Shown one piece after another: positions 2,902-13,319 of a stretch of DNA of 64,000 bases. This stretch comes from Vulcanimicrobiota bacterium (GTDB lineage: Bacteria; Vulcanimicrobiota; JAJTBE01), in contig JAIORV010000187.1 in NCBI GenBank assembly GCA_021107945.1, positions 1-64,000 on the forward strand, read 5' to 3'. Both the position numbers and the translations under genes were made by a program. Below the pieces are notes generated by a model. It ran no database searches and was not told the origin of the DNA. It saw only the letters and a program-made list of their open reading frames with translations. The stretch's first letter is position 1, and each line of letters begins with the position of its first letter.

Positions 2902-3114
2902 ATGTTTGAGGTGACGAAACTACGAGAAGAGAAAAAATGGTCAAAAAGTGAACTTTCCCGGCGATCCGGTCTGAATCTTCCACTGATTTCCCAACTGGAA
3001 AGCGGGAAAATCTTCCCCTATCCCGGCTGGAGGAAGAAAATTGGTAAAGCCCTGGAAGTTAAGCCGGATATACTATTCCAGGAGGTAAACGAGGATGACA
3101 AACCCTCTGAATAA
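2902..3114 (+). CDS. XRE-family helix-turn-helix regulator
   Basis: This 70-residue protein is almost entirely a Cro/CI-type HTH: LREEKKWSKSELSRRSGLN holds helices 1-2, and the recognition helix lies in PLISQLESGKIFP. The start ATG follows AAAGGAGGTAGAAAA, a strong ribosome binding site. It is the first rightward gene and is divergent from the zinc-finger/integrase operon, the usual place for the switch repressor of a phage or satellite. The next gene starts 20 bp before its stop. It lacks the C-terminal sensor domain of a classical CI, so it is a Cro-like or minimal repressor. Confidence 0.85.
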   Translation: MFEVTKLREEKKWSKSELSRRSGLNLPLISQLESGKIFPYPGWRKKIGKALEVKPDILFQEVNEDDKPSE

Positions 3115-3406
3115 AGTCATATATAATCTGGAATCCCGTTTGGAAAGGGCGGAGGATGTAGATCAAGCCCTTAGACTGACTGACCGGATTCTTGAAGCTT
3201 ATTCCCGACTTCCTGAGAGGCAAAAACTTTGGGGATTGGAAGAAACAGCGGAATACTTGGGTTTAAAGCCCGATACAATCCGAAAATTCTGTTCACAACA
3301 GAAAATCCCTCACATAAAACTTGGATCCCGTTGTAGATTCGAACCGGGGAGAATTAAAAAGTGGGTAATATCACGAGAGATCAAAGCCCATAGGGCATGG
3401 AGGTAG
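3095..3406 (+). CDS. MerR/excisionase-type helix-turn-helix protein
   Basis: This 103-residue protein has an N-terminal helical part (1-45) and a C-terminal excisionase-family wHTH. The key run is LWGLEETAEYLGLKPDTIRK, then HIKLGSRCRFEPGRIKKWV, the standard layout of a helix-turn-helix with a wing. The start ATG is 9 bases after AGGAGG and overlaps the end of the XRE gene, and the stop is 4 bp before the primase gene. In satellites an AlpA/Xis-like activator often sits here, between the repressor and the primase. An activator of the rightward operon is therefore a reasonable guess; a second excisionase is the alternative. Confidence 0.8.
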   Translation: MTNPLNKVIYNLESRLERAEDVDQALRLTDRILEAYSRLPERQKLWGLEETAEYLGLKPDTIRKFCSQQKIPHIKLGSRCRFEPGRIKKWVISREIKAHRAWR

Positions 3407-3410
3407 TGGC

Positions 3411-6005
3411 ATGATTAGCACAATAAGCCAAATAAAAGCAAGAGTATCCATCCTGGATGTTATTTCTTGGAATGGTGTTAGCCTTAACGGCAGGGGTAAA
3501 ATTCCTTGCCCACTGCCGGGGCATGATGACAAGGATCCCTCTTTCTTAGTTTATGAGAAGACTAATTCATTTAACTGTTTCGGATGTCACCGGGGCGGTG
3601 ACTTAATTACTCTTCATGCGTTACTCAAAGGAATTTCAAACAGTGAAGCGATCAAAGAACTTGCGCACAAATTTAACATCCCGATGGGGAACTTCGATCC
3701 GGTAAGATATAAAAAACAGCAAGACGAAAAAGCCCGGGTTCAGGAAGTCTTCAATGCTTTTCAAAAGCTATGTAAAGATGAATTAAAAAATAATAATAAT
3801 ATGCAGGCGTTTTGTGTGAAGAAATGGGGATTCGGCAGGGATATACAGGAGAAATTCGGCTTCGGATATTGCACGAAGGCGATATATTCAAAACTTTTTA
3901 AGACCATCAAAGCGAAGCGACTTAAACAAGCAGGACTCCTGGGAGAAACAGGATGGAAAGTATTTGAGAACCGTATTGTTTTACCGTATTTTGATTACTC
4001 TAACAAAACTGTTTACTTTATCGGAAGGCTAACAAAGCCCGAAAAATGGGGAGATATAGACGCGCCAAAGTATGTTAAGAGTCTAACGAAAACGGAGAAG
4101 AACCCGAATGTATCAGAAACCGTTAAGAACGTGTTATATATAATTCGAGGATCGGGAGAAATTGTATATAACACAGAGGGGATCGCGGATGCAATTTCGA
4201 TTCACCAGGCTACAGGGGTAACGGTTATAGCACCTGTTACGGTTTCTTTCAATAGTAAAGATATTCCAAAAATAGCCACTGTAGCAAAGCGATTTCATGA
4301 AGTAATAATTATAAATGATAACGAGGTAAACGAGAGCGGAGAGAAGGGCGCGCACAAGACCGTTCATGACCTGCGAAAGCACGGCGTTACCGGTATTAAA
4401 CTGATAGAACTATCACGTCCGGAAGGTGTTGAAAAAATTGATATAAATGACTTCCTCCGGGATCCTACAGAGGAGAAAAAGCAGGAATTCCAAGGACTTC
4501 CACGGCGGAAACTATGGGAGATAATGGCAGAAGAATTAACACTTGATAATTTGATAGATAAAATTGAACCTATATTTAAGGAAATATTGGAAGAAGAGGG
4601 GGAAACAACAGGAAAAATCCTTGCAAAAAAACTTCTTCGTAATATGAAAATAAAAGAGCGTGATCTTCCCGATAATATGAAGTTCTTCTCAAACCTTGTA
4701 AAAGCTAAAAAACAAGAAAAAGAGGAAACCATTGACCAGAAAATTATAAAAAAAGTGGAGGAACAGAAGGAACCCCTGTCCGATGAAGACCGTCAAAAGG
4801 CTGAAGAAATGGCGAAGAACCCACGGATATTTGAGGAAATCAGCACCGATATTAAGACTCTTGGTATTGTGGGAGAGGAAGATAACAGCTTAATGGTATA
4901 TCTTGCCGGAACTTCCCGACTCATGAGCAAACCTTTAAAGTTAAACCTCCGGGGCGATCCTTCGACAGGAAAAAATTACATTACCGATGGCGTTTTATCA
5001 CTTTTCCCGGAGAGTGAGAAAGTTAATGCGTCACGAATGACCAGGCAAGCATTAGCCTATATGGAGAAGGAGGCACTGAAACATAAAATCCTTCTTATCC
5101 AAGAAGAAGAGGGATCTGAGGATGGAAATTACAACCTCCGAATTTTACAATCGGAAGACGGAATTATAACACATGTTGTAGTTAAAGATCCAAAAACAGG
5201 GACACCGAAAACTGTAAAAATGGAAGTGCTAGGCCCAACCGCGACAATTACTACGACAAACAAAATAAAGCTATATGAAGACAACGAAACCCGAATAATT
5301 GTTTTATATGTCGATACCTCCGAGAAACAAACAAAACGAGTGTGTGAAGCGGTTAAACATAAAGAGAGTATTTACCAGGGAGATAAAGAAGAGCAAAAAG
5401 AGCAGATCCGGCGGAAACATCATGCCTTTCAACAGACACTCGAACCTCTTGATGTTGTTATCCCATTTTATAAATATATTAATTTTCCCACAAAACAGAA
5501 CAGAGCGCGACGCGACATTACGGCGTTTTCTGCAATAATAAAAGCTGTTGCATTTATTAATCAAAAACAAAAAGAGATAAAGCCCGAAGGATACATTGAA
5601 GCTGATATTAATGACTACGGCATAGCTTATGGAATATCGAAAAAGATATTAGACCGGACACTTTCAGGCATGCACCCGAATGCCCGAAAACTTCTTGTCA
5701 TACTCCAAGACCTTTGGGAGAGAAAGATCGAGAAATTAACACCAAAACAGGCACTTGACTATAGCTTCACACACAAGAATATAGAAAGAGAAACTGGGTT
5801 AAGTGGGAGCTTCATTCGGAAATATATGGAAGCCCTGCGACAAACGATATATCTGAAAGTGGCAAACAAGGGCGGGAAAGGAGCAACTCGTGAATACCGA
5901 TACAGGATGGATATTCAACCGGAGGATGACATTCAAGAAAAGGGCGTCGGGATCACGACACCGGAGGAGTTGGCAAAACTTTTAGAAGGGAAAATAGTGA
6001 TTTAG
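3411..6005 (+). CDS. primase-helicase replication protein (CHC2, Toprim, P-loop ATPase)
   Basis: This 864-residue protein is the likely replication initiator of the element. Residues about 25-65 form a CHC2 zinc-binding primase finger (CPLPGHDDKDPS, then CFGCHRGGD). The middle has a Toprim-like catalytic region with IINDNEVNESG and IDINDFLRD near residues 300-345. From about 500 there is an ATPase-like module with a modified Walker A, GDPSTGKN, where the usual final Thr/Ser is Asn, then LLIQEEEGSE as probable Walker B. A C-terminal helical region (about 740-830) may bind DNA. The fusion resembles Pri-Rep proteins of satellites and plasmids. A nested inverted-repeat region follows directly at its 3' end, as in SaPI replicons. 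Confidence 0.9.
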   Translation: MISTISQIKARVSILDVISWNGVSLNGRGKIPCPLPGHDDKDPSFLVYEKTNSFNCFGCHRGGDLITLHALLKGISNSEAIKELAHKFNIPMGNFDPVRYKKQQDEKARVQEVFNAFQKLCKDELKNNNNMQAFCVKKWGFGRDIQEKFGFGYCTKAIYSKLFKTIKAKRLKQAGLLGETGWKVFENRIVLPYFDYSNKTVYFIGRLTKPEKWGDIDAPKYVKSLTKTEKNPNVSETVKNVLYIIRGSGEIVYNTEGIADAISIHQATGVTVIAPVTVSFNSKDIPKIATVAKRFHEVIIINDNEVNESGEKGAHKTVHDLRKHGVTGIKLIELSRPEGVEKIDINDFLRDPTEEKKQEFQGLPRRKLWEIMAEELTLDNLIDKIEPIFKEILEEEGETTGKILAKKLLRNMKIKERDLPDNMKFFSNLVKAKKQEKEETIDQKIIKKVEEQKEPLSDEDRQKAEEMAKNPRIFEEISTDIKTLGIVGEEDNSLMVYLAGTSRLMSKPLKLNLRGDPSTGKNYITDGVLSLFPESEKVNASRMTRQALAYMEKEALKHKILLIQEEEGSEDGNYNLRILQSEDGIITHVVVKDPKTGTPKTVKMEVLGPTATITTTNKIKLYEDNETRIIVLYVDTSEKQTKRVCEAVKHKESIYQGDKEEQKEQIRRKHHAFQQTLEPLDVVIPFYKYINFPTKQNRARRDITAFSAIIKAVAFINQKQKEIKPEGYIEADINDYGIAYGISKKILDRTLSGMHPNARKLLVILQDLWERKIEKLTPKQALDYSFTHKNIERETGLSGSFIRKYMEALRQTIYLKVANKGGKGATREYRYRMDIQPEDDIQEKGVGITTPEELAKLLEGKIVI

Positions 6006-6250: not shown

Positions 6251-6949
6251 ATGCTAATAAACGAGATATATCAACGGTTGGAGGCGATAAAGCACCCTGA
6301 AACAAATGTTTTATGTCCTAAAACAGCAGAAAATTCTCCTGTAGTTGTGAAAAGTTGTGAAGAAATCCCTCCTGCAAAACTGGAGCCACAGCAAGAGCAG
6401 AAACAAGAGCGGTCTCCTGGGGCGGTAAAAATTCCTCTTCGACTTCACGAGCCTGGGGCGCGTCCATTCTCTCTTCTGTGTCCAAAATGTGGAGCGACTG
6501 ATAATTTCTTCTTCCCTGCGTTGGAGCCGGCAGGTAATTCAGGCGGTGATCTTCTCGTGATCTGTGGCTATTGCAAGAGCAAGCTGATACCGGAAAAACA
6601 TTATTCAGGGACGGCACGGGAGATATATGAGAAGCTGGATCCTGTGAAAGAGGAGTCACCAGGGCAATATCCGGCACGTCCTCTTATAAAGCCATGCCCT
6701 GTTTGCGGTGGGTGTTTATTTTGGGAGAACTTGAACGGCGTTGTGTCCTGTATCAAATGTATCCCTCTATATAACAAATGGGCGGTTCTGCGTTACTGGA
6801 AGATTGAGGAAGGCGGGCAAGCCCTGGAAGTGGAGCATGGGCATGATTATGAGAAGGCAAGGCAAGAATTATTTCAGCATGCCCGGTCCCCGGGGCTTGT
6901 GGAGAGGGCAAAAAAACAAGAGAATGAAGCGGAAGAAACTCCATTTTAG
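6251..6949 (+). CDS. two-zinc-ribbon protein with SSB-like C-terminal tip
   Basis: This 232-residue protein has two separated zinc ribbons: LLCPKCGATD with ICGYCKSK at about 79-120, and PCPVCGGCLF with SCIKC at about 150-172. The second is reminiscent of Lar-type restriction-alleviation proteins, including the NKWAVLRYW that follows it. It starts after a strong AGGAGG and ends in acidic residues followed by EETPF, which resembles the DDIPF tip of bacterial SSB. It begins the operon downstream of the putative origin. A role in replication or in countering host DNA defences is inferred only. Confidence 0.75.
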   Translation: MLINEIYQRLEAIKHPETNVLCPKTAENSPVVVKSCEEIPPAKLEPQQEQKQERSPGAVKIPLRLHEPGARPFSLLCPKCGATDNFFFPALEPAGNSGGDLLVICGYCKSKLIPEKHYSGTAREIYEKLDPVKEESPGQYPARPLIKPCPVCGGCLFWENLNGVVSCIKCIPLYNKWAVLRYWKIEEGGQALEVEHGHDYEKARQELFQHARSPGLVERAKKQENEAEETPF

Positions 6950-7187: not shown

Positions 7188-7517
7188 ATGTTAAAGATAC
7201 TCAAATTCAAGTCTATGGATAGCGGGAGCCTTCGAGGTTTCCTGTCTATTGAATCGGATAAAATGAGAATGATATTCAACGATCTGCGACTTATGGAAAC
7301 AAATGGCACTGAATGGATAGCGTTCCCGGCGAATAAGTATGAGAATGATGAAGGGAAGACTCGTTACAGTCCGTATGTGAAATTCACCAGTAAGGCGATC
7401 AGTAAGGCATTCACGGAGCAGGTTCTACAAGCCCTGGAAGAATGGAAGAAATTGTACGGCGAAAATGTCGAGATAATTGCGGAGGACGTGGACACCGGGG
7501 AGATCATGCCATTTTGA
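7188..7517 (+). CDS. SpoVG-like nucleic-acid-binding protein with SSB-like tip
   Basis: This 109-residue protein resembles SpoVG, a small site-specific DNA/RNA-binding protein: an initial strand-rich part ending in the FNDLRLME region, then TEWIAFPANKY and a C-terminal helix (KAISKAFTEQVLQALEEWKK). SpoVG shows the same order in its IRVIDGNNGLFVAMPS core. It ends DVDTGEIMPF, similar to the acidic-IPF tip by which SSB recruits repair and replication proteins. The ATG follows GAGGAG. The next gene encodes a protein of similar size that also ends in -PF, so the two may be divergent paralogues or partners. Assignment to the SpoVG fold is by eye. Confidence 0.65.
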   Translation: MLKILKFKSMDSGSLRGFLSIESDKMRMIFNDLRLMETNGTEWIAFPANKYENDEGKTRYSPYVKFTSKAISKAFTEQVLQALEEWKKLYGENVEIIAEDVDTGEIMPF

Positions 7518-7554
7518 GGAGTATCCCGGCAATAATAATAACAGGAGGTAGAAT

Positions 7555-7854
7555 ATGAAAAAAATTATATTAGCAGAGGGGAGTTTATTTGGGAAGTTTG
7601 CATTTAAAAGCGAATTATTAGGAGGTTTAAGAATAAATGGCTTGGATCTTCGAGTAATGAAAAGCGACAGCGACAGCGAAGGGGGCGAAATAGTGCTAAT
7701 TCTCCCCGATGAAATATCATTCCCCGATAAGAAAAAAGAGGAAGAATTTATCCAAGAATTTCGATGGGCTTGTATTGCTCATTTACAAGGAGCTTTATTA
7801 TTTTTTCAGGAGAAAAAACTTTCTGTTTCATCCGGGGAACTTATCCCATTTTGA
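7555..7854 (+). CDS. small protein, possible divergent SpoVG-like partner, SSB-like tip
   Basis: This 99-residue hypothetical follows a strong AGGAGG. It has the same overall plan as the preceding SpoVG-like protein: an N-terminal strand-rich half with INGLDLRVMK, a middle LPDEISFPDK where SpoVG has its LFVAMPS strand, and a helical C-terminal half. Its last residues are SGELIPF, very close to the GEIMPF end of its neighbour. No database family is recognised by eye. It is most simply read as a second member of a pair of element-encoded ssDNA or RNA-binding proteins. Confidence 0.55.
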   Translation: MKKIILAEGSLFGKFAFKSELLGGLRINGLDLRVMKSDSDSEGGEIVLILPDEISFPDKKKEEEFIQEFRWACIAHLQGALLFFQEKKLSVSSGELIPF

Positions 7855-7919
7855 GCATATTCCCGGCGTTGGCAAAATGGTTCCAGGCAATAATGATAAT
7901 AATAACAGGAGGTAACATC

Positions 7920-8816
7920 ATGGCAAGGCGTAAATGGAGTTGGACAAAAAAACAGTTTGACAAGTTAAACAAAGTTCAAGAGATACTTGAAGAACTTGAT
8001 GAATACAAGCCGTTAACACTCCGACAAGTCTATTATCAACTTGTTGGCAAGGGATATATTGAGAATAGGGTTTCTGAATATGGCATGCTTTCAGGTTTAC
8101 TCAAATATGCAAGAATAGCGGGTTATATTCCCTGGGAGGATATTGAAGACCGGGGGAGGATATTCCATAATTTAACGGGATTTGAAGACTATCAGGAATT
8201 CATAAGTGCTTCATATTATCATTTTTTAAGAGGATACCGGCGTAATTTACTTCAAAAGCAAGGTAAATATCTCGAAATATGGATAGAAAAAGACGCGTTG
8301 AGCAGTATCTTTACAAGAACGGCAAAATATTACACTGTCCCGGTAATAGTTTGTAGAGGATTTAATTCAGTTAGTTTTCTGAATGCTTTTAAGGAGAGGA
8401 TTCAGGCGGAAGATCACCCTGTTGTTCTTTATTTTGGGGACTTCGATCCATCAGGCATGGCAATGTTAAATTCAAGTAAGATAACACTGGAGAATGAAAT
8501 GAATGTTCAAGGCGTAGAGTTTAAGAGAATAGCATTGAGCAAGGAGGATATTTTCGAATACAATTTGCCACATAATCCAAGTGCTATAAAAAAGAAGGAT
8601 ACTCGAACAAAGAAGCATGTAGCACAATACGGTGAAATAGCGGTGGAATTGGACGCGTTACCTCCGGCAATATTAGAAGAGAAAATCAGGAATGCAATTG
8701 AAGCGGAATTGGATATGAATTTTTTTAAGGAAGAGAAGAGAGAGGAAGAAAACGAGTTTGACTTGTTAAACGATATAAAAAAGGGGGTAGGTGAATTCCT
8801 GCAAAAGGTAGCTTAA
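7920..8816 (+). CDS. Topo mini-A: Spo11/Topo VI A-like topoisomerase-type protein
   Basis: This 298-residue protein starts at the ATG after AGGAGGTAACATC. The N-terminal winged-helix region carries TLRQVYYQL, which matches the R-x-x-[YF]-Y motif holding the catalytic tyrosine of Topo VI A and Spo11, here most likely Y39. A Toprim domain follows with E123 in WIEKDAL and D174/D176 in YFGDFDPSGM. The C-terminal ELDALPPAIL resembles the terminal helix of type IIB A subunits. No B (GHKL ATPase) subunit is nearby. Stand-alone A-like proteins on bacterial and archaeal viruses are known as Topo mini-A, and this fits that group. It could nick or cut DNA during replication or packaging, but activity is unproven for the family. 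Confidence 0.85.
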   Translation: MARRKWSWTKKQFDKLNKVQEILEELDEYKPLTLRQVYYQLVGKGYIENRVSEYGMLSGLLKYARIAGYIPWEDIEDRGRIFHNLTGFEDYQEFISASYYHFLRGYRRNLLQKQGKYLEIWIEKDALSSIFTRTAKYYTVPVIVCRGFNSVSFLNAFKERIQAEDHPVVLYFGDFDPSGMAMLNSSKITLENEMNVQGVEFKRIALSKEDIFEYNLPHNPSAIKKKDTRTKKHVAQYGEIAVELDALPPAILEEKIRNAIEAELDMNFFKEEKREEENEFDLLNDIKKGVGEFLQKVA

Positions 8817-9083: not shown

Positions 9084-9728
9084 GTGGCTCAAACTAAGGT
9101 AATAAAATTCAAAATAGATGAAAGCATTCTTCTTCCTCGGCTATTTAATGAAACTGGCAAGGGTTATTATTTCTTCTGTAAATATGCAATGATGGGAATA
9201 AACCGGAGTTTAAGGAAGTTATCAAAAACAGGGGGGAGAAGTTTTAGCCAACTAAGGCGTTGGTCTAAAAAGAACCAGTGGGTAAAAAGGGCGCAGGGAT
9301 ATGATAAAGCATTCCTCCAATGGGAATTAAGACAGATACGAGAGGAAGCAATTGAAGCCCGGAAACGTCGGATAAAACAACAGATGTTAAGACAACAAAC
9401 AGGGCGGAAACGGATACAGGCGATAAGCACGGATGGACAGGATTTCAAAGATGTGTTATCGGTGGAGACTGCATTAAAGATGATAGATAGCGGAGAGAAG
9501 GGGGAACGGATTGAATATGGTGAAATCGATGAAGCATTGCAGGAATCGAATAATGCTAATATTTCTTTGTCTATAGATAAATCCGGCGGTGTTGTTGAAT
9601 CCATAAAAGTTGGAATCAATCAGAAAGCATTATTGAAGGAGAAATTTCTCGAAGCAAGCCCGGAAGCGCAAAGAAACTTCATTCATGCTCTACGGGGGAT
9701 TCTTCCACAAAATAAATTGAGTTTTTGA
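9084..9728 (+). CDS. probable phage terminase small subunit
   Basis: This 214-residue protein has a GTG start after AGAGG. Residues about 40-80 (SLRKLSKTGG, then FSQLRRWSKKNQWVKRAQGY) match the layout common to many small terminases: a short HTH followed by a W-S-x-K-x-x-W-V-x-R-A-x-x-Y/W-D signature and a long basic coiled coil (about 85-130). Small terminases select the DNA to be packaged. A satellite-encoded one redirects helper-phage packaging to satellite DNA, which would explain its presence here without a large terminase. A generic HTH protein is the alternative. Confidence 0.7.
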   Translation: MAQTKVIKFKIDESILLPRLFNETGKGYYFFCKYAMMGINRSLRKLSKTGGRSFSQLRRWSKKNQWVKRAQGYDKAFLQWELRQIREEAIEARKRRIKQQMLRQQTGRKRIQAISTDGQDFKDVLSVETALKMIDSGEKGERIEYGEIDEALQESNNANISLSIDKSGGVVESIKVGINQKALLKEKFLEASPEAQRNFIHALRGILPQNKLSF

Positions 9729-10054: not shown

Positions 10055-10075
10055 ATGAGTGGCGGAGGTATAATT

Positions 10076-10471
10076 GTGTCCGACAAAGATAAAAAATCTA
10101 TGTGGAATTTCATCATTATTATATTGGTAATAATATCTATATTCTTCTTTGTCCTATTGCTTCTGAAATATTCTGATAGTAAAGAGAAATATAATAACAT
10201 TCACGAGGCAGTTAAAGCTAGAGATATGCAGGCAGTAAAAGGTCTTATTAAAAAAAAGCATGAACTCGTTAATTCGAGAGATGAACATTTTTATACACCA
10301 TTGCATTGGGCGGTTTTTTCAGGCAAAAAAGACATGGCAAAGTTTCTTTTAGACAGCGGGGCGGATATTAATGCGAAGGATATGAATGGAGTTACACCAT
10401 TGAATATAGCGACTTCTGCAAGTGAGAAAGAAATGGTAGAATTCCTCCACAGACATGGGGCTAAAGAGTAA
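10076..10471 (+). CDS. membrane-anchored ankyrin-repeat protein
   Basis: This 131-residue protein is read from the GTG that has GGCGGAGG seven bases upstream; an in-frame ATG 21 bp earlier has no such site. It has a short basic N-terminus, one transmembrane helix (about 9-29, FIIIILVIISIFFFVLLLL), then about two and a half ankyrin repeats with the hallmarks TPLHWAVFSGKKDMAKFLL and GADINAKDMNGVTPLNIA. Ankyrin repeats bind other proteins, and the topology places them in the cytoplasm or periplasm next to the membrane. It begins the cargo segment of the element. Superinfection exclusion or helper interference would suit this position, but that is a guess. Confidence 0.8.
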   Translation: MSDKDKKSMWNFIIIILVIISIFFFVLLLLKYSDSKEKYNNIHEAVKARDMQAVKGLIKKKHELVNSRDEHFYTPLHWAVFSGKKDMAKFLLDSGADINAKDMNGVTPLNIATSASEKEMVEFLHRHGAKE

Positions 10472-10543
10472 TAAAGTACAAACCTGAAAAGCAAGGCGGG
10501 ACTGTGGGACTCCACCTATACCACCTTGGGACTGGAGGAAGGG

Positions 10544-10693
10544 ATGGAGATAGTATTGACGAAAAAAAAAGTTGTAACGGAGGAAGTGCTATATGATAAA
10601 AAACAAAACAAAGAGGATCTTTATCACTGTTATAGCAGTCAAAACCGGGAAGAAGAAATTCGCAAAGAGCAAATGAAGATGAAAGAATTCTAA
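10544..10693 (+). CDS. small hypothetical protein (49 residues)
   Basis: A short reading frame starts at an ATG immediately preceded by GGAGGAAGGG, a very strong ribosome binding site, and ends just before the zinc-ribbon gene. The product is highly charged (VVTEEVLYDKKQNKEDL, then REEEIRKEQMKMKEF) and predicted helical. No family is recognised. It could be a small regulator or the surviving end of a larger gene. Confidence 0.4.
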   Translation: MEIVLTKKKVVTEEVLYDKKQNKEDLYHCYSSQNREEEIRKEQMKMKEF

Positions 10694-10731
10694 TCTTAAA
10701 ATATATCGATAATTGATAGGAGGAATATAAT

Positions 10732-11271
10732 ATGGCAGAAAACAAAAATAAATGTCCATTTTGTGCAGAAGAGATTAAAATCGAGGCGATTAAATGTCCT
10801 TATTGTGGAGAATTTTTTACTCATACCTGGAAATTTTTTGCTGGCAAAGTACTTTGTGTTGTTGGATTTTTTCTACTAATTATGTGTGCGGTCTTATTAG
10901 CAAAATTTTATACTATGGATACCACTGTAGAAGGAATATCTGAAAAACGTATTCACAATATAGGCCTTATAGATGAGAAAAGAGCAGGTATTGATCTGGC
11001 ATCAGTTTTGGGTATAATTGGTGCGATTCTTTTTTCGGCAGGTGTTATAATTCAACCATCTATAACTCAGAGAAAACAAGAAAAATCTAAAGAACCATCC
11101 CAACAATCAATTATATCGAAAGTAGGAGAAACATTTTCATCTTCCAAAAAATTGACATTCGAATGTCCTCAATGTCAAGCTCCTCTGTCAGTTGATGCCG
11201 AACATGCCGGTAAAGAAATTCAGTGTCCGAATTGTGAAGCTAAAATCGAAGTGCCTATGGAATTAACTTGA
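10732..11271 (+). CDS. membrane protein with N- and C-terminal zinc ribbons
   Basis: This 179-residue protein starts after AGGAGG. An N-terminal zinc ribbon (CPFCAEEIKIEAIKCPYCG, residues 7-25) is followed by two transmembrane helices (about 38-60 and 92-113). A C-terminal zinc ribbon (about 144-175) has FECPQCQAPL and IQCPNCEAKI. Both ends should lie in the cytoplasm. The downstream gene, also zinc-ribbon plus membrane, overlaps or nearly abuts it, so the two are probably made together. No enzymatic motif is seen. It is cargo of the element with unknown function. Confidence 0.75.
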   Translation: MAENKNKCPFCAEEIKIEAIKCPYCGEFFTHTWKFFAGKVLCVVGFFLLIMCAVLLAKFYTMDTTVEGISEKRIHNIGLIDEKRAGIDLASVLGIIGAILFSAGVIIQPSITQRKQEKSKEPSQQSIISKVGETFSSSKKLTFECPQCQAPLSVDAEHAGKEIQCPNCEAKIEVPMELT

Positions 11272-11288
11272 AAGAAGGGTATTTAACA

Positions 11289-12014
11289 ATGCCAATGATA
11301 AAACTCTCCTGTAAATCCTGCGGAGCCAAACTTGAGCTTACCGATGACATAGACCGCTTCTCCTGCGCTCATTGTGGTTCGGAATGGATTGTTAACAAGA
11401 GCGGTGGGATTGTTAGTTTAAAAGCTGTGGAAGAAAGCGTGAAACATATTGAGGAATCCTCCCAGGCAACCGCAGAGCATACGGAAATATTGGCAGATGA
11501 AATACGAAAGAGAAAAATTCAAGAGAAAATTAACAAGTTAAAATTTAAAAAATTTAAAATTAATAAAAATCCAAAAATAAAGAACCCTGAATACGAAAAA
11601 ACTTACAAAAAAGCTAAAGAAGAATTTGATTTAAAATATAAACAAGTAATGGGTTCAGGTAAATGGAAGTTAATTTGGAAGATTTCTTTAATTACCTCAT
11701 TAGTGATAACAATTTTTTTCTATTTTTTTCAAAATACATTTGTAAATATTATTTTGGGTTACGAACCAGGTTTTGGAGTTGGGTTTAGTTTAATTCACTT
11801 GTTACTTATTTTGTTATTTTCATTTCTCTTAACATTGTTTGCCCTTATAATTATACTAAAACTAAAGTTTCCAACTCTTGATATTCCAGCTGATATTCCA
11901 GCTGCTATTCCAGACCCTGAACAACAAGAAAAAAACCTTGCTCTAATAAAAGAAATTGATAATGAAATAGCCGACTTAAAGGCAAAACTTCATGATATTG
12001 AAAATAGAATATGA
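11289..12014 (+). CDS. zinc-ribbon membrane protein
   Basis: This 241-residue protein is read from an ATG with AGAAGGG upstream; an in-frame TTG at 11268 overlaps the previous stop and is less likely. The N-terminus has a zinc ribbon (CKSCGAKLELTD, then FSCAHCGSEW), followed by a charged helical region. Two hydrophobic helices lie at about 120-145 and 155-185, and the C-terminal helix (EIDNEIADLKAKLHDIENRI) is coiled-coil-like. It shares its architecture with the preceding gene and probably works with it at the membrane. The role is unknown. Confidence 0.7.
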   Translation: MPMIKLSCKSCGAKLELTDDIDRFSCAHCGSEWIVNKSGGIVSLKAVEESVKHIEESSQATAEHTEILADEIRKRKIQEKINKLKFKKFKINKNPKIKNPEYEKTYKKAKEEFDLKYKQVMGSGKWKLIWKISLITSLVITIFFYFFQNTFVNIILGYEPGFGVGFSLIHLLLILLFSFLLTLFALIIILKLKFPTLDIPADIPAAIPDPEQQEKNLALIKEIDNEIADLKAKLHDIENRI

Positions 12015-12563: not shown

Positions 12564-12773
12564 ATGGAAGAAATGCTAACAACTGTTGAAGTGGCAAAGA
12601 TACTCAAAATGAATCGGCAAACGGTTTCAAACCTCATGAAGCGGGGGGCGATCCCTGCGGTGAAGATAGGCATGAGATGGAGGGTAAGGAAATCCGACCT
12701 GGATAAACTAATGACACCGGGAGAAGAACAGGAGGACTCCAAAAGCACTGAAAAGCATGACGAGGACAAATAA
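12564..12773 (+). CDS. excisionase-family DNA-binding protein
   Basis: This 69-residue wHTH of the MerR/Xis type carries LTTVEVAKILKMNRQTVSNL, then AIPAVKIGMRWRVRKSDLDKL, the standard helix-turn-helix plus wing. An acidic tail follows. It stands alone behind its own consensus-like promoter, 460 bp inside the right end of the element and opposite the integrase end. This position and size fit the recombination directionality factor that would turn the integrase to excision; a transcription activator is the alternative. Confidence 0.8.
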   Translation: MEEMLTTVEVAKILKMNRQTVSNLMKRGAIPAVKIGMRWRVRKSDLDKLMTPGEEQEDSKSTEKHDEDK

Positions 12774-13234
12774 AGGCGAAATAATGGGGACAAATATGGG
12801 ACATATACCCTCTGGAATCCTGTGGTTAAGGGACTCATGGAAGGTGTTCTTTTCTCTTTTTTAAGCAATATCTGGGGATATTCAGGCAATTTATCGGGGG
12901 GATAAGAGATATTTTACAGAGGTATTTTCCACAGAAAAAAATATTTCGATATATAATCCGATGTTTTAAATGTAAAATTAATTTGGGACAAAAAGCGAAC
13001 TTCTCTTTCAGAAATTTCTCTCTTTTTCCTGGGGGACACTTTACTTCTCCGATTAGTATTCATGCGGGTTCAAGTGGGCAAGCATGAAAACTTTAAAATG
13101 AAGGAAATGTGGGACAAATTTGGGACAAAAAGTTTCCAAAACAGGGTAATTTTATGCTGTTTTACACCAAATATGACACGATATTCTGGAACCAAAAAAC
13201 CCACCGTTCCCTTGAAATGGCGGGCTTACTTTGA
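12774..13234. other. Non-coding right end of the element with repeated TGGGACA motifs
   Basis: No gene is seen. TGGGACA occurs at 12797, 12984, 13110 and 13121, plus a variant TGGGGACA near 12785, and GTATTCATGCGGGTT lies at 13056-13070. The same TGGGACA motif occurs at 569 and 580 (variant) at the opposite end, next to the other attachment repeat. These are probably arm-type integrase sites. Confidence 0.6.
13194..13224 (-). terminator. element-borne terminator downstream of tRNA-Ala
   Basis: On the minus strand, 11 bases past the tRNA 3' end, CCCGCC (13224-13219) can pair with GGTGGG (13205-13200) around a 13-base loop, followed by six T. It would replace the original chromosomal terminator that integration moved away. 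Confidence 0.55.
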
Positions 13235-13307
<73 letters not shown>

Positions 13308-13319
13308 ATGTCGAAGTAT

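Follow-up and report, generated by a model that had tools for sequence, protein, structure and literature searches.

The protein of 298 amino acids encoded at 7920-8816 (+) of the analysed window (the first 64,000 nucleotides of contig JAIORV010000187.1, from the Vulcanimicrobiota bacterium assembly GCA_021107945.1) is, as judged from its sequence, a bona fide and ordinary Topo mini-A, a member of a widespread named family of phages, archaeal viruses and plasmids. Its gene lies in the replication module of an integrated element of about 12.8 kb that is, by gene content, plausibly a PICI-like, TerS-carrying satellite, and we consider it probable that the protein works as a stand-alone homodimer serving the element's replication or recombination. 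The novelty is modest and consists of the address, a mini-A on a satellite-like element with a packaging gene; the system itself is not of a new kind. Mini-A is a viral relative of the enzyme whose DNA cuts initiate meiosis, and no smaller form of the Topo VI-A/Spo11 cutting module is known. A short element that carries few further genes offers an uncomplicated place to ask what it does. The case also bears on the ability of an A subunit to function in cells that have no B subunit at all.

The mini-A gene and its family

The open reading frame extends from an ATG at 7920 to a stop ending at 8816, with a strong ribosome-binding site, AACAGGAGGTAACATC, immediately 5' of the ATG. An alternative start at 7764, located inside the preceding gene and without relatives, was rejected, and 7920 is the likely start. 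An identical 19-nt leader that includes the ribosome-binding site, ATAATAATAACAGGAGGTA, was observed at 7532-7550 and at 7896-7914, before a 99-aa ORF and mini-A, respectively. Because Pfam and NCBIfam scans returned no match to the protein, which is below detection by Pfam TP6A_N, and single-sequence phmmer against the PDB returned chance matches only, placing the protein required searches by PHROG, by profile and by fold. Among PHROG profiles, phrog_6247 ("DNA topoisomerase") matched residues 9-280 with E = 4e-62, so that the residue pattern described below is not due to chance.

Homologues of mini-A were detected in 76 phage records by tblastn, including the Mini-A of Pseudomonas phage NP1 (36% identity, 9e-35), which is given as an example of the family in a review (PMC7614492), and Haloarcula californiae icosahedral virus 1 (HCIV-1) was among the viral records. 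A further 53 plasmid records carry homologues, two of them archaeal and annotated as Topo mini-A (30% identity, 1e-19; P-7H_11 included), and more than 500 stretches of IMG/VR viral contigs matched the protein. About 40 Streptomyces plasmids (matches H52-H80) carry unannotated homologues with 25-32% identity. Reviews describe mini-A genes as residing mostly on mobile elements and their function as unknown (PMC8185306, PMC8084294), and the literature found contains no report of DNA cleavage, relaxation or any other tested function for a mini-A.

Active site and fold

An alignment of 71 diverse relatives revealed T33, R35, Q36, Y39, Y54, R65, D77, R80, E123, K124, A126, G147, S150, D174, D176, G179 and D245 to be invariant, with conservation of the predicted catalytic tyrosine in an RQ-x-Y-Y motif and of the Toprim glutamate and DxD. 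The motif TLRQVYYQL with Y39, E123 and D174/D176 had been proposed beforehand as the catalytic set of type IIB topoisomerase A subunits, and both the positions and the assignment were correct. Position 38 is occupied by phenylalanine in eight loci and by tryptophan in one, so that the invariant Y39, and not Y38, is the candidate nucleophile. Y39 is located in a winged-helix-like part and E123, D174 and D176 in a Toprim part, E123 being assigned by motif and invariance rather than by residue-level alignment to a solved structure.

The AlphaFold2 monomer model had a mean pLDDT of 85.5, with a linker (79-86) below 50. Its top PDB matches in Foldseek were 1d3y, 9o8p and 9o0g (probability 0.99-1.00, TM-score 0.33-0.38), and only 1d3y (M. 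jannaschii) and 9o8p (M. mazei), both Topo VI A, had E < 0.001; the TM-scores are low because the domains are oriented differently or their orientation is badly predicted, which leaves a related topology but not the same domain arrangement. A search of PDB sequences with a profile of the 71 relatives retrieved 1d3y as its sole match at E <= 10, and this match was weak (E = 0.8), with the mini-A GDhDpSG falling on FTDGDPYG and the matching tyrosine motif of 1d3y, TLREAYY, aligned at an insignificant score. The aligned chain positions 35, 181 and 183 correspond, at one constant offset of 68, to Y103, D249 and D251, which we take to be the catalytic residues of 1d3y. A better match to an unrelated Toprim family was also looked for and such an identity was rejected, only Topo VI A standing out by both fold and profile. 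In SPO11 and Topo VI the tyrosine acts at the metal site of the partner subunit (PMC11922746), so the proximity of Y39 to the Toprim residues cannot be judged from a monomer model.

Absence of a B subunit and distribution in the phylum

The preliminary description had noted no B subunit near the gene, and this extends to the whole host genome (98.6% complete), in which a profile search with positive archaeal controls yielded no match to TP6A_N or Topo-VIb_trans. No B subunit is fused to mini-A, which ends at 298 aa, or adjacent to it, and the genome holds no second mini-A. Among the 198 genomes of the phylum that were searched, this is the only one with a mini-A, a single occurrence of the kind expected for a mobile passenger. 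With this host, the family reaches a bacterial phylum whose other 197 searched genomes are without it.

The integrated element

The element is bracketed by a 46-nt direct repeat of the 3' part of a tRNA-Ala (GGC) gene (13233-13308, -), its integration site, with the left att copy at 464-509 and the right one, within the tRNA gene and with one mismatch relative to the left, at 13235-13280. Start to start, the copies are 12,771 bp apart (12.77 kb), and the GC content is 38.6% in the element versus 42.6% in the host part of the window. A tyrosine integrase gene (545-1606, -; Phage_integrase 1.5e-37, phrog_1 1e-82) adjoins the left att and is followed by the gene for a 392-aa protein whose C-terminus weakly matches a treble clef (1603-2781, -). 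On the plus strand are a Cro/CI-type HTH regulator (2902-3114; HTH_3 4.9e-6), an AlpA/excisionase-type HTH_17 protein (3095-3406; HTH_17 1.4e-9, phrog_66 6.7e-7) and a replication protein (3411-6005; Zn_ribbon_DnaG 9.8e-15, dnaG domain 4e-41), whose DnaG-type primase N-terminal half comprises the CHC2 zinc finger, the catalytic core and Toprim and whose C-terminal half, assigned by eye, reads as a P-loop/helicase-like region. Mini-A belongs to one strand-coherent block running from this primase to a TerS-like gene (9084-9728, +; phrog_6299 2.1e-15), the first recognised gene 3' of mini-A, whose product has 35% identity over 65 aa to that of the TerS gene located immediately before TerL in phage CL131. 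Accessory genes for an ankyrin-repeat protein and two zinc-ribbon/membrane-like proteins follow (10055-12014, +), and a second AlpA/excisionase-type HTH_17 protein is encoded near the right end (12564-12773, +; TIGR01764 2e-11, HTH_17 2.3e-16).

The three successive plus-strand genes 5' of mini-A encode a zinc-ribbon-like protein ending in -EETPF (6251-6949), a small and weakly SpoVG-like protein ending in -EIMPF (7188-7517; SpoVG 1.3e-4, below the cut-off), which is a candidate ssDNA-binding protein, and the small product of the 99-aa ORF, ending in -ELIPF (7555-7854). Their C-termini resemble the SSB tip, and the three may be ssDNA-binding or replisome-docking proteins. The ankyrin-repeat protein (10055-10471) has a membrane-anchor-like N-terminus and weak matches to candidate defence models. 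No relatives of the primase or of the TerS-like protein were detected in IMG/VR, which therefore contains no close relative of the whole element.

The integrase, AlpA-type regulators, primase and TerS-like gene are traits of PICI-type elements, and the element ORFs scanned included no recognisable TerL, portal, capsid or tail gene. The earlier placement of mini-A on a satellite is plausible by layout, the att repeats, integrase, primase, TerS-like gene and missing structural genes agreeing with it. A smaller but real chance is that the element is an integrative plasmid or a remnant prophage in which the TerS-like gene is a relic. Mini-A genes do occur on small plasmids, such as those of 15 kb from Paenibacillus and 8.8 kb from an archaeon, and the lack of TerL, portal and capsid would be compatible with such an origin, but the att repeats are clean, pseudogenised structural genes are missing and the integrase, AlpA-like, primase, mini-A and TerS ORFs are all intact with ribosome-binding sites. 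Elsewhere in the host genome, a search via TerL located, on contig C3 (L106:1-20000), a phage-like region that has genes for portal, capsid and head decoration and a TerL split over two frames; no HK97-type portal (phrog_12) was found in the genome. This region might be a helper, a helper-derived element or a remnant prophage, and no link between it and the mini-A element was found. The literature found, whose coverage leaves out many journals, contains no paper linking mini-A with PICIs or other phage satellites. The novelty is nevertheless smaller than the preliminary description suggested, the family being widespread and by definition without B subunits.

Gene neighbourhoods of related mini-A genes

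The nearest relatives of the protein, with about 61-62% identity, are encoded in Brocadiaceae metagenome-assembled genomes (MAGs) and on two viral contigs, and the mini-A of L022/L001 is the sister of the window gene in the tree (support 93/85). The 11-kb contig L022:1-11004 carries a P4-type integrase, an AlpA-like regulator, a DnaD-like gene, HNH, TerL, capsid/protease, portal and a regulator followed by mini-A, after which the integrated element ends at a host HlyIII gene; it has no tail genes and might be a decayed prophage or a satellite of the capsid-forming type. The mini-A of L013 lies two genes away from an integrase that abuts a tRNA-Thr gene, and in the close relatives L014, L015 and L023, as in the window, replication genes precede mini-A. 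The L015 copy, from a Neomarinimicrobiota MAG, is frameshifted. Directly 5' of it, at L015:8718-9598, are two tandem TerS-like genes that share a 181-nt repeat (81% identical).

Across relatives, the immediate same-strand neighbours of mini-A encode helicases, primases, polymerases, ligase, RecE, Erf/Sak4 annealing proteins, Holliday junction resolvases and ThyX. In phage NP1 the neighbours are a primase/helicase, dUTPase, an RNase H-like protein, ThyX, ligase, a RecA-like ATPase and a RecB-type exonuclease. By association, these neighbourhoods point to replication and recombination and not to packaging.

Discussion

Sequence and fold comparison establish the family of the protein, its intact catalytic set, its replication-module context and the genome's lack of an A or B partner, and from these we infer a chemistry and a role. 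Mini-A would act as a metal (Mg)-dependent homodimer in which Y39 from one subunit works with the partner's metal-binding Toprim residues to cut both DNA strands, the protein remaining reversibly and covalently bound to the 5' ends through a 5'-phosphotyrosine link. As no GHKL subunit is present to gate strand passage, cleavage would be independent of ATP. Mouse SPO11 cleaves DNA alone in vitro, needs dimerisation to do so and can relax plasmids (PMC11922746), which by analogy would make such chemistry feasible without a B subunit. The enzyme could relax or unlink the replicating circle, by nick-and-swivel or by break-and-rejoin, or could introduce breaks from which recombination-dependent copying yields concatemers, the preferred substrate of terminases; its contribution to packaging would then be indirect, and it would not itself be a packaging protein.

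A dedicated Spo11-like nuclease that starts recombination-dependent replication or makes packaging ends in direct coupling to the TerS-like protein would account for the gene order in the window, for the TerS-like genes also found near mini-A in L014 and L015 and for the position of the NP1 gene between DNA ligase and the RecA-like ATPase, near the RecB-type exonuclease, and SPO11 is able to make breaks alone. We nevertheless regard this reading as unlikely, since terminases are missing from the PHROG families listed for immediate mini-A neighbours in other loci and the superfamily cleaves reversibly by default. A conserved mini-A/TerS pair was moreover rejected, the TerS-like proteins of the window, L014 and L015 belonging to three different PHROG families (6299, 57 and 24579), and that of the window having no BLAST similarity to that of L015. 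The broadest form of this reading, in which satellites would use a B-less Spo11-like enzyme for programmed breaks that lead to recombination-dependent replication and to concatemers for TerS-directed packaging, is a long shot; if true, it would be the equivalent, in bacteria and in mobile-element parasitism, of the machinery that makes meiotic breaks.

Two further readings concern the partner and the target. Topo VI A normally requires a B subunit, and GyrB is to our knowledge present in every bacterium, so mini-A could recruit a host GHKL protein (GyrB/ParE) for ATP-driven strand passage. This seems improbable given that only about 32 residues precede TLRQ in mini-A, so that the N-terminal region in contact with the B transducer seems to be missing, and that the genome has no B-type gene; M. 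jannaschii Topo VI A presumably has nearly 100 residues before that motif (Y103 versus Y39). Wadjet JetD is a Spo11/TopoVIA-like nuclease, and a few mini-A members match DUF2399 and JetD_C weakly at family level, which would fit a weapon that cuts helper-phage or host DNA to the element's advantage. We consider such a function very improbable, as no PADLOC match and no JetABC partners were found and mini-A is common in ordinary phage replication modules. A homodimer serving the element's own replication or recombination is the reading that we prefer.

Comparison with known systems

The closest counterparts are the other Topo mini-A proteins (phrog_6247; NP1, HCIV-1, P-7H_11), which have the same full-length homology, the invariant Y/E/DxD set, no B subunit and a location on mobile elements; the window protein differs in its setting, a 12.8-kb integrated element with TerS only, whereas the smallest phage among the matches listed has a genome of 22.5 kb. 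With Topo VI A and Spo11 the protein shares fold and catalytic residues, but its N-terminus is much shorter and its genome lacks a B subunit. Topo VIII is likewise a type IIB relative found on plasmids and integrated elements; the window mini-A, with 298 aa only, has no fused or separately encoded GHKL/transducer part. To Wadjet JetD the mini-A family has a remote TopoVIA-like kinship, and a JetD or defence identity was rejected, JetD_C being absent from the genome along with JetABC and any PADLOC match. With TerS-carrying PICIs the element has in common its size, att sites in a tRNA gene, integrase, AlpA-type regulators, primase, a TerS-like gene and no capsid genes of its own; unlike the PICIs in the literature found, it carries a mini-A.
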